Source: Chloroflexia bacterium SDU3-3 (lineage in GTDB: Bacteria > Chloroflexota > Chloroflexia > Chloroflexales > Roseiflexaceae). Taken from it: 64,000 nt of DNA. Shown here piece after piece: positions 12,641 through 18,407 of this stretch. Where the stretch lies: positions 124,001-188,000 of the forward strand of contig WBOU01000007.1 in assembly GCA_009268125.1 (NCBI GenBank), read 5' to 3'. The position numbers and the translations under genes were made by a program. The notes beneath the pieces are model-generated. The model was not told where the DNA came from and made no database searches. It saw nothing but the letters and a program-made list of their open reading frames with translations. Position 1 is the first letter of the stretch. The number at the start of each line of letters is the position of its first letter.

Positions 12641-14194
12641 CTAGCGCCGCGCGAGCGCGGTGGCGATGCCGCTCTGGAGTGTGCTGCTGGTGATCACGCC
12701 GTTCATGGTGATGCCTAGCCCCACCACGGTCTGCGCCACCTCGGGGCGGATGCCGGTGAGGATGACCCGCGCGCCCACCAGGCTGGCGGCCTGCGCGGCG
12801 CGCAGCAGCGTCTGGGCCACCTGGGTGTCCACCACGGGCACGCCGGTGATATCGATGATGGCGATCTCGGCGTGGGCCTCGACGATGCCTTCGAGCAGCC
12901 GCTCGACGATCTGGTCCGCCCGCACGCTGTCGATGCTGCCGATCAGCGGCATCACTGTGACGCGGTCGCTGATCGGGATCATGGGGGTGGAAAGCTCGGC
13001 CAGCGCGGCCTGCTGGGCGGCGATCACCTGCTCCTGCAGCTGCAGCCGCTCCTCCTCGGCGCGTAGCTGCTCAGTCATGTCGCGGGCGATCCCTGCGCCT
13101 GCGAAGGGCCTGCCGTTCAGATCGTGCATCACCGCGATGGCGCTCTGGGTCAGCACGGTGCTGCCATCCCTGCGCCGGTAGGTGATCTGGCCGTGCCAGC
13201 GCCCGTTTTGGGCGAGCTCGTGGTTGATACCGTCGGAGTCGATTGGCATCTCGGGGGTGTAGAACCGAGTTACGTCCTCGCCGATGAGCGAGTCTTCTGC
13301 GTGCAGCAGGCGGTGGAAGGCGGGGTTGGCATAGCGGATGGTTTGGCCGAAATCGACGATGGCAATGCTGTCGGGCGCGTTTTCTACCAGCAGCTGGAAG
13401 TTGCGCAGATCTTGCTCGATAGCCAGTTGGTCGCTGATATCGCGGATGATCGCGACGCTGGAGACATCGCCGCTGTCACCCTGGATCATATAGCTGGAGA
13501 CATCGCCGATAAATTCGCTGCCATCGTTGCGCCGGTAGGTCAGCCGCCCTTTCCACAGCCCGTCTTCGGCAATGGATGTGCGCAGATCCTGCAGCACCTC
13601 GGCGTCCTGCTCGCCAAACAGATCGGCCTCGCGCATGCCAAGCAGCGACTCGTAGCCCATCTGCTGCTGGAGCGCGGGGTTGGCGTAGCTGATCACCCCG
13701 TTGATCGCCACGCCGATGCCGTCGGGGGCGTACTCGGCCAGCTTTTTGAAGAGCCGCAGCTGGTTCTGGTAGCGTCTGCTGATCAGGTTGACCGCCCCAT
13801 CGAAGAGCTTCATCAGCTCTTTGATGCCGATGCCCGCCCCTTCGATGCCTTGCTCCATAGCCTCAAGCGCGAGGCTGAGGAAGGCGGCACGGTAGATCGA
13901 GTTGTGCTGGAGCACCACGTCGAGCGGGATGTTATCGAGCACCTGTGGGGTGAGCTGCTGGGCAAAGCCCTGCAGGATCGGCTCGTGCTGGTAGTCGCGC
14001 ATGAAGCGGAAGTAGCTGCCGAGGGTATGGGCGATCTGCTCTCGCACTTGTTCGGGGCTCTGGCGGAAGACATTGCCAGACTCTGACAGCTGTGGCGTGA
14101 TGATGTCGTAGAACTGGGGCTGGCGGTCGAGAAAATAGCTGAGGAGAGCGGGCGCAGCTGTGCCGTCGTCTGGGTTGGCTGGTACGTGCGTCAT
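12641..14194 (-). CDS. RsbR-like stressosome protein (helical N-domain, two PAS, STAS)
   Basis: A 517-residue protein. Residues 1-140 are helical, like the non-haem globin-type sensor of RsbR. Two PAS domains follow (starting near VAINGVISYANPALQQQMG and FGQTIRYANPAFHRLL), each with an SVAIIRDI- or GAGIARDM-type exit. The C-terminal 110 residues form a STAS domain with IIDITGVPVVDTQVAQ, matching the phospho-acceptor Thr region of RsbR/RsbS. Such proteins build stressosomes that release the RsbT kinase under stress. No rsbS, rsbT or sigma-factor gene adjoins it, so its partners lie elsewhere or it works differently. ATG 14194 is chosen over 14206 because GAGGG sits 7 bases before it. Its stop is 6 bases from that of the convergent STAND gene. 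Confidence 0.85.
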   Translation of the reverse strand: MTHVPANPDDGTAAPALLSYFLDRQPQFYDIITPQLSESGNVFRQSPEQVREQIAHTLGSYFRFMRDYQHEPILQGFAQQLTPQVLDNIPLDVVLQHNSIYRAAFLSLALEAMEQGIEGAGIGIKELMKLFDGAVNLISRRYQNQLRLFKKLAEYAPDGIGVAINGVISYANPALQQQMGYESLLGMREADLFGEQDAEVLQDLRTSIAEDGLWKGRLTYRRNDGSEFIGDVSSYMIQGDSGDVSSVAIIRDISDQLAIEQDLRNFQLLVENAPDSIAIVDFGQTIRYANPAFHRLLHAEDSLIGEDVTRFYTPEMPIDSDGINHELAQNGRWHGQITYRRRDGSTVLTQSAIAVMHDLNGRPFAGAGIARDMTEQLRAEEERLQLQEQVIAAQQAALAELSTPMIPISDRVTVMPLIGSIDSVRADQIVERLLEGIVEAHAEIAIIDITGVPVVDTQVAQTLLRAAQAASLVGARVILTGIRPEVAQTVVGLGITMNGVITSSTLQSGIATALARR

Positions 14195-14309
14195 ACATGC
14201 CCTCATGGGTAAAAATGTTCTTGTTGCTTAGGTAGTAGTGTATGAAATTCAATGCGAGTTGTATAGATGCAGATTCTCACCGATTCGATGACGAATATGC
14301 TTCAACGAC

Positions 14310-16508: not shown

Positions 16509-18407
16509 CTAGTGTATGAAGAACATAATCAGCAGGGTGAGGAACATCACCCCGACCATCACATACAGCGTGATCCGCTCCAGGTCGTAGAGCGCCAGAT
16601 CGCCGCGCACTTCGTCTTTGAAGCCGATCAGGGCTAGGCTGTGCGACTTTTCCTTCAGCTTGTAGTCTACCTCGGTCAGCGGCACGCCACGGATGATCAG
16701 CTCGGTGGCGATCAGGCGCGCATCTTGCCCGCCGCCGTTGATCGCGGCCTCCAGCATCTCTTTCAGCGGGGCGATCTGGTACCAGCGCGCCTCGAAGGCG
16801 TCGATCTCGCGCCGGAAGACCTCCTGCAGCTGGGTCTGCACCGCCAGCTTTTGGTAGGGGGCCACATCATCCTCGTTGAAGAACACCCGCCCGTGGCGCG
16901 ACCACGTGAAGACCTTCTCCTGCAGCATCTGGCCGGTGCCCTCGCAGCGCGGGCAGGGGATCTTGCCATAGCCACGGCAGGTCGGGCAGTTCTCCGAGTA
17001 GGTCTCGGTCTTATTGGTGCCGTCGGCATCTTTGACCCGGCGGGTCTTCTCGATCACGCCCTTGGTGCCGCAGCTCTTGCAGGGGATGAAGGTCGAGCCG
17101 TTGCACTCGGTGCAGCCTACCACCTTCTGCGAGCCGGGGATCACGATCGGCTCGGCGGGGGCCTCGCTGAACGTGTCGGTCTCGGGCACGGCGATGGTCC
17201 ACAGCTCTGGCTCGGCTGCAGAAGGGTTGAGCGTGCCGCCCTTGTGCACGTGCTCGCGGGTCTGCGGCGTGGTGCGGGTCTCGTAGTAGACCTTCAGCTC
17301 GTAGGCGTAGAGGTTGTAGCTGACGATCTGCTCGGGCTGGATGAGCTGGCCGAAGGCGGTCTTGCGCAGCTTCAGCGGCGCCTGCCTGCTCCAGCGGTCG
17401 AGCACGCGGCGGATGGCCCCCGAGCGGTGCAGCGCGTCGGCCCTGGCCCGCGACTTGGACTGAAACTCGTGGTCGAGCATCTCGCCGATCACCGACTCCA
17501 CAGGGTTTTCGAGCCACTCGGCGATCGCCTCCCAGCGCGACTCCTCCATGTCGTCGGTCGAGCTGTCGATCTGGCGGCGCAGCGCCTGGCGCAGCACCGT
17601 GGTCACCTGCTCGGCGCTGGTGAAGCGCTGGTTTGGCTCGACGGCCATCAGCTTGCGCAGGATGCGGTCGACCCCGCCCAGTGCGGCGTCGCGCTCGGCC
17701 AGCGAGCGCAGGGCCTGCCCAGGGGCAGGTGGCACCTGGCCGCTGAGCGCGTGGTAGAGCACTGCGCCCAGGCTGTACAGGTCGGACTCGCGGCGCACCT
17801 TGCCGGTCAAGGTCTGCTCGGGGGCCGAGTAGGGCGTCAGGAAGTCGGCCTCGTCGAGCTTCGAGAGGTCGGGCGTGTCGGGCGAGTGGGCCAGGCTGAA
17901 GTTGGTCAGGTAGGCCACGCCCTGCGGCGTCACCAGGATGTTCTCGGGCCGCACATCGCGGTGGTAGATGCCTTGGTCGTGCAGGTAGTCGAGCGCCGCG
18001 CCGACCTGCGAGGTGATGCGCAGCGCCAGCAGCGGGTCGATCGGCCCGGCGGCGAGCACCCCGCTCAGCGGCTGGCTCTCGATCTGGGGCGTGACGATAT
18101 AGTCGCCATAGTGCTCGTCGTGCCCGGCGTCGATCACCTGCAGGATGCTGGGGTGGCTGAGCCGTGCGGCGAGCCGCGCCGCCAGCTGGAATCGGCTGGA
18201 TGAGATCCAGTCGGTGCGACGCAGCAGGTGGACTTCGACTGGCCGATCAAGGGTGAGATGGACGCCACGGTAGACGGTGGCAAGCTCCTCCTGGCCGATC
18301 CGCTCGGAGAGGCGGTAGTTGGTCAGCTCCCGCATCTCGGCGGTGGAGCGTGTAGCACCAGGGCTAGGTGGTTTTGTGGTGGAACGAACATTTGCCGACA
18401 TGTGCAT
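16509..18407 (-). CDS. Membrane-anchored protein kinase homologue lacking catalytic residues, with a DnaJ-type zinc domain
   Basis: A 632-residue protein. Residues about 30-290 follow the serine/threonine kinase fold, but key residues are missing: the VAIK lysine is His60 (VEVHLL), the expected alpha-C Glu is Ala (RFQLAA), the Gly loop keeps one Gly (IGQEELATV), and DFG reads NFS (residues 169-171). HRD (149-151) and Asn156 remain, as do SAPEQ and SDLYSLG. This is a pseudokinase pattern. After a helical linker, about residues 440-500 hold four CxxC motifs in DnaJ-like form (CTECNG, CKSCGTKG, CPTCRGYG, CPRCEGTG). The C-terminus is one transmembrane segment followed by FFIH, so the protein is tail-anchored with the domains in the cytoplasm. 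The start is the ATG after GAGG. Two promoters lie upstream. Confidence 0.85.
   Translation of the reverse strand: MHMSANVRSTTKPPSPGATRSTAEMRELTNYRLSERIGQEELATVYRGVHLTLDRPVEVHLLRRTDWISSSRFQLAARLAARLSHPSILQVIDAGHDEHYGDYIVTPQIESQPLSGVLAAGPIDPLLALRITSQVGAALDYLHDQGIYHRDVRPENILVTPQGVAYLTNFSLAHSPDTPDLSKLDEADFLTPYSAPEQTLTGKVRRESDLYSLGAVLYHALSGQVPPAPGQALRSLAERDAALGGVDRILRKLMAVEPNQRFTSAEQVTTVLRQALRRQIDSSTDDMEESRWEAIAEWLENPVESVIGEMLDHEFQSKSRARADALHRSGAIRRVLDRWSRQAPLKLRKTAFGQLIQPEQIVSYNLYAYELKVYYETRTTPQTREHVHKGGTLNPSAAEPELWTIAVPETDTFSEAPAEPIVIPGSQKVVGCTECNGSTFIPCKSCGTKGVIEKTRRVKDADGTNKTETYSENCPTCRGYGKIPCPRCEGTGQMLQEKVFTWSRHGRVFFNEDDVAPYQKLAVQTQLQEVFRREIDAFEARWYQIAPLKEMLEAAINGGGQDARLIATELIIRGVPLTEVDYKLKEKSHSLALIGFKDEVRGDLALYDLERITLYVMVGVMFLTLLIMFFIH

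Follow-up and report, generated by a model that had tools for sequence, protein, structure and literature searches.

A conserved candidate pseudokinase with a DnaJ-type zinc module and a predicted membrane anchor in the Chloroflexales, and its active-looking paralogue

We analysed a window of 64,000 nucleotides from Chloroflexia bacterium SDU3-3 (contig WBOU01000007.1, positions 124,001 to 188,000), which carries on its minus strand the gene of a 632-amino-acid protein, P0001, belonging to a family that we call A. Two ATG codons, at 18407 and 18401, are candidate starts, with GAGGA close to each, and 58 of 60 genomes contain relatives (E ≤ 1e-40). Elsewhere in the window (12641-14206, minus strand) lies the gene of a putative RsbR-like regulator of 521 amino acids; judged by eye, it contains two stretches that look like PAS and, at its C-terminus, one that looks like STAS. 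The parts of P0001 are:

16509..18407, minus strand: reading frame of the family A pseudokinase (P0001), 632 aa, stop codon counted in the coordinates
17568..18332, minus strand: pseudokinase domain, residues 26-280, PknB-like fold without the catalytic residues (Pfam PF00069, structure model)
18279..18296, minus strand: degraded glycine loop GQEELA, residues 38-43, acidic in place of the second Gly (37/37)
18228..18230, minus strand: His60, at the position of the VAIK Lys (Lys in 0/37 sequences)
18180..18182, minus strand: Ala76, at the position of the alphaC Glu (Ala in 37/37)
17955..17963, minus strand: HRD, residues 149-151, retained in 37/37
17895..17903, minus strand: NFS replacing DFG, Asn169-Phe170-Ser171 (Asp in 0/37)
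17814..17882, minus strand: dead activation segment, residues 176-198, the most conserved segment of family A
17358..17537, minus strand: helical linker, residues 291-350, also present in kinase-less orthologues
17136..17354, minus strand: N-terminal part of a beta domain, residues 352-424, without a Pfam match
16932..17120, minus strand: DnaJ-type zinc module with four CxxC, residues 430-492 (CxxC counts, fold matches)
16602..16931, minus strand: C-terminal part of the beta domain, residues 493-602 (structure models)
16515..16583, minus strand: predicted C-terminal transmembrane tail anchor, residues 609-631 (helix in two models, hydropathy)

The AlphaFold2 model of the whole protein had a mean pLDDT of 87.9, and the C-terminal half modelled separately reached a pLDDT of 93.5. 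Pfam Pkinase matches P0001 with an E-value of 1.3e-23 and the model aligns with PknB over 242 residues (Z 28.9, rmsd 1.9, 30% identity), which together make the predicted kinase fold unambiguous. All NCBIfam matches were far below their cut-offs.

We aligned the copy in the window and 36 further family A sequences with 19 copies of a paralogue, B, and eight other kinases. None of the 37 family A sequences has the VAIK Lys or the DFG Asp, the latter position being Asn in 30 of them, and the alphaC Glu position is Ala throughout. Glu or Asp stands at the second Gly position of the P-loop in 37/37. The Ala of VAIK that contacts adenine is substituted in 36/37, mainly by bulky or charged residues. 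HRD and the alphaF Asp are present in all 37 sequences, the structural Arg is retained as well, and the Glu of APE, which in P0001 is part of SAPE (residues 194-197), is found in 36; the catalytic-loop Asn is kept in 25 and lost in 12. With two lobes, HRD, APE and the alphaF Asp, family A has the features of the Hanks-type Ser/Thr kinase fold, while the VAIK Lys, alphaC Glu and DFG Asp of an active Hanks-type kinase are missing from all 37 members. As the absence of at least one of Lys, HRD Asp and DFG Asp defines a pseudokinase, and Lys and DFG Asp are both gone in 37/37, we classify family A by its residues as a fixed pseudokinase; three identical in-frame losses in every sequence speak against both a frameshift and chance. 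A sequencing artefact, or the frameshift that the preliminary description had raised as an objection to its own reading, is next to impossible, since the losses recur identically and in frame in 36 other genomes. Judged from the residues alone, binding of ATP in the usual way is unlikely: Lys, Glu and DFG Asp are lost, the P-loop is acidic and the VAIK Ala is substituted. Of the ATP-sensing membrane scaffold envisaged at the outset, the scaffold is still plausible and the ATP sensing is unsupported.

Purifying selection acts strongly on the pseudokinase domain. Within family A, the mean pairwise identity is 61% in the dead kinase domain and 70% in its N-lobe, compared to 46% in the C-terminal half. 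For the dead kinase, dN/dS among close pairs lies around 0.03-0.20; this estimate is rough because dS is saturated in several pairs, and it is similar to the one for B. The activation segment has a mean conservation of 0.83 in A versus 0.65 in B, followed within A by alphaC and beta4-beta5 (0.80); strong conservation extends over the P+1/activation segment and HRD, although the phosphopeptide recognition that the preliminary description also considered is conjectural. Such constraint on a surface that does no catalysis would be expected of a docking or allosteric module.

Orthologues of family A occur across the order of the window, in Roseiflexaceae, Chloroflexaceae and Herpetosiphon, and named records include Roseiflexus, Kouleothrix, Chloroflexus, Oscillochloris, Chloroploca, Viridilinea and Herpetosiphon. 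Strong matches to the A profile came from 51 of the 56 good-quality genomes of the order, good quality meaning a completeness of at least 90% and a contamination of no more than 5%. Of the other five, G007, G014 and G022 carry a kinase-less form and G017 a fragment; G080 is the fifth. Searching with the C-terminal half at E 1e-10 matched no genome of the class beyond the order. Two public bins labelled Singulisphaera and Candidatus Gracilibacteria also contain a family A gene (L150, L156), and these labels are probably binning or naming errors. No conserved operon or partner gene beside A is common to the families, and synteny is only at the family level: A lies between recG and recJ in part of the Roseiflexaceae and is syntenic with rsmE and another gene in the Chloroflexaceae.

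The genome of the window also encodes the paralogue, which has the same layout as A:

L001:5242-7326 (G000:C29), minus strand: paralogue B, kinase domain, beta/zinc domain and tail anchor

Over the kinase domain and linker, B is 33% identical to A. All 19 copies of B have the VAIK Lys, alphaC Glu, HRD, catalytic-loop Asn and DFG. From these intact motifs we consider catalytic activity of B likely, despite a Ser, Ala or Thr in place of the catalytic-loop Lys (HRDxK) in 19/19. B is strongly matched in 50 of the 56 good-quality genomes, with a further fragment in G023, and its gene is unlinked to that of A. When five other kinases served as the outgroup in a tree of kinase domains, A and B each formed one clade (support 100 and 90, respectively), adjacent relative to the kinases included; given this small outgroup, A or B may have a closer relative. 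The stem of family A measures 1.54 changes per column and is followed by mostly short inner branches, a pattern that we read as fast change and then renewed constraint. The A copy of G020 has a very long branch. Three genomes, G001 and G020 (each more than 90% complete) and G008 (85%), retain A with its kinase domain and lack B, so that A does not wholly depend on B. PADLOC reported matches to the defence systems PD-T4-6 and mad6; a defence role for A was rejected because these matches fall essentially on the generic kinase domain and B scores higher than A. In six loci of genus g16 (L053, L055-L058 and L060), B lies about 5.5 kb from another Ser/Thr kinase and near both an FHA-domain-like protein and a MoxR-type AAA ATPase, and a locus of genus g21 (L054) is similar but lacks the MoxR-type gene. 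These neighbourhoods suggest a signalling cluster.

In the C-terminal half, the DnaJ-type zinc module is inserted within the beta domain. Its four CxxC lie at residues 432, 443, 474 and 485, and four CxxC were counted in all complete sequences of A (36/36), in B (19/19) and in the kinase-less forms (2/2); all four appear as full CxxCxGxG motifs in 12 of the 36 complete A sequences. Pfam PF00684 scores below its cut-off on P0001; Foldseek matched the module to the Cys-rich domains of DnaJ and BSD2. A J domain is absent from the Pfam matches of P0001 up to an E-value of 1, which argues that P0001 is not a DnaJ protein. The beta flanks of the module match no Pfam model, and a second look at the Foldseek list showed no solved structure resembling them above background. 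A hydrophobic helix that ends one residue before the C-terminus of P0001 is present in both models. Over family A, the best 19-residue hydropathy is at least 2.35 and its stretch ends 1-6 residues from the C-terminus (36/36), and from this hydrophobicity we infer that the tail is a membrane anchor.

One group of small-genome relatives of Roseiflexaceae has A orthologues of about 353 aa that begin past the kinase domain:

L071:7754-8815 and L072:3296-4357: kinase-less A orthologues, between recG-like and recJ genes

Full-length A of close relatives occupies the same position between recG-like and recJ genes, which indicates that the kinase-less form arose at the A locus when the kinase domain was lost. 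In the flanks of the kinase-less loci, no remnant of that domain was found. B is absent from all four genomes with this form. We did not use the co-loss of B and the kinase domain of A as statistical evidence, since these genomes form a single clade and may reflect one or few events. In addition, other families of the phylum encode kinase-free relatives (L168-L181) of 460-720 aa that share the beta domain and have more CxxC. By eye, none of the fourteen shows a stretch resembling a kinase or an evident hydrophobic tail at the C-terminus, and Pfam gave neither a kinase match nor a model covering the beta domain for the two that were searched. We also noted a presumed resemblance of the C-terminal half to the eukaryotic protein SSUH2 (ssu-2 homologue), which belongs to a gene family without known molecular function. 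An unverified SSUH2 sequence, which may contain errors, matched the C-terminal profile with an E-value of 2.5e-27 as a whole and of 2.7e-5 and 1.1e-3 in the flanks of the zinc module, compared to no match for 20 shuffles of it. With a sequence of this kind, kinship with SSUH2 is a lead only. The SSUH2 stretch compared here shows no kinase and a longer CxxC array than A.

Overall, the observation in the preliminary description was right and understated. Its pseudokinase lacking the VAIK Lys, alphaC Glu and DFG Asp and keeping HRD holds across 37 sequences, with the APE Glu retained in 36, its DnaJ-type four-CxxC zinc module agrees with the CxxC counts and the DnaJ/BSD2 fold matches, and its predicted C-terminal membrane anchor is consistent with the hydrophobic tail in 36/36 sequences and the helix in both models. 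Structure prediction, alignment with other kinases and a search of Chloroflexota, three of the routes it had suggested, led to the PknB-like fold at Z 28.9, to losses of Lys, Glu and DFG Asp in A at positions that B retains, and to order-wide orthologues sharing these three losses. The layout taken to be novel is indeed undescribed in the literature searched; however, a paralogue in the same genome has it with intact motifs. Overlooked were this paralogue, which looks active, the A orthologues that lack the kinase domain and the kinase-free proteins homologous to the C-terminal half.

Catalytic loss under strong selection, together with the usual coexistence with an intact-looking twin kinase, suggests that A is probably a docking or control partner and not an enzyme. 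As our tentative first choice, we propose that A acts as a non-catalytic, probably nucleotide-free, membrane-anchored partner or scaffold, most likely for B. A and B would descend from a common kinase-fusion ancestor, and A would be cytosolic throughout except for a C-terminal helix in the cytoplasmic membrane. Its kinase fold, which from its residues would probably not bind ATP in the usual way, could serve for docking or allosteric control, mainly through its N-lobe/alphaC face and the frozen activation segment. B, which shares the C-terminal half and the anchor, would be the likeliest partner; a protein client might be held or sensed by the beta/zinc domain common to both, and A could regulate or position B at the membrane. 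The unlinked genes, the lack of a conserved operon around A and the three genomes with A but no B speak against this partnership. It is also conceivable, and we keep it as a serious if doubtful competitor, that A is a stand-alone membrane adaptor whose beta/zinc core binds clients while the pseudokinase docks a partner other than B. The kinase-less orthologues at the recG-recJ locus, which retain the C-terminal half alone, the kinase-free relatives in the phylum and the occurrence of A without B in G001, G008 and G020 all favour such an adaptor, but the pseudokinase is the better conserved half in most genomes, a poor fit to an auxiliary role, and the neighbourhood shows no partner gene.

We regard it as improbable that A binds nucleotide non-canonically or carries out AMPylation or a Mg-independent transfer through its HRD Asp. 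HRD in 37/37 sequences and the catalytic-loop Asn in 25/37 would be in line with this, and metal-independent ATP binding has been proposed for the HRD-keeping DLHK pseudokinases in the available text of a recent review (PMC12599244). However, the P-loop is acidic in 37/37, the VAIK Ala is substituted in 36/37, the beta3 Lys is absent and the catalytic-loop Asn is gone in 12/37, and SelO and SidJ, according to the same text, retain the Lys and the metal-binding Asp (PMC12599244). It is very unlikely that the kinase domain is merely a decaying relic beside a needed C-terminal domain: its loss in one clade and the very long branch of the A copy of G020 would suit a relic, but dN/dS of about 0.03-0.20 and a conservation above that of the rest of the protein would not.

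Few bacterial pseudokinases have a known role. Family A makes the role of a dead kinase in a bacterium directly testable, because nature supplies the controls: a paralogue in the same cell that looks active and has the identical layout, and genomes from which the dead domain has been deleted. No Pfam model exists for the conserved domain that forms its C-terminal half. A simpler bacterial system would become available for the eukaryotic SSUH2 family if the link to it is true. More speculatively, and on balance unlikely, the order-wide pair of membrane-tethered kinase and pseudokinase with SSUH2-type client-sensing domains might be a chaperone-coupled kinase switch; if real, such a switch would give the eukaryotic SSUH2 gene family its counterpart in bacteria.

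Literature searches on Chloroflexota pseudokinases, DnaJ-kinase fusions and SSUH2 with DnaJ returned nothing relevant except a general review from 2025, whose available text covers the bacterial pseudokinase families ActPs1-3, GLW, CP1, DYD and DLHK as well as EssB, MviN, SidJ and SelO (PMC12599244). That text mentions neither Chloroflexota nor DnaJ nor zinc; the atlas or figures behind it may list family A. As described there, MviN (ActPs3) is a membrane protein with full motif loss and a deletion in the activation loop, and EssB/YukC is a membrane protein in which all three catalytic motifs are degraded and HRD is absent. A likewise has degraded motifs and is predicted to be membrane-linked, but differs from MviN by retaining HRD and a conserved activation segment, and from EssB/YukC by HRD in 37/37. 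DLHK pseudokinases keep the HRD Asp, have degraded ATP and DFG motifs and lack a transmembrane region (PMC12599244); A shares the HRD Asp and the degraded ATP and DFG motifs and differs by its C-terminal hydrophobic tail (36/36). Thus, going by the descriptions in this part of the review, none of the pseudokinase families compared fits every feature of A. With DnaJ/Hsp40 and plant BSD2, A has in common the four-CxxC zinc module by fold, whereas, in contrast to DnaJ/Hsp40, it lacks a J domain and its module sits within a different beta domain. The Hanks-type kinases PknB and PknA of Mycobacterium tuberculosis have the same fold as A and are membrane-associated, as is predicted for A; PknB is catalytically active and lacks a beta/zinc domain, whereas A has this domain and lacks the catalytic residues. 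Paralogue B corresponds to A in architecture from the kinase through to the anchor, but the loop between its CxxC pairs is usually longer.
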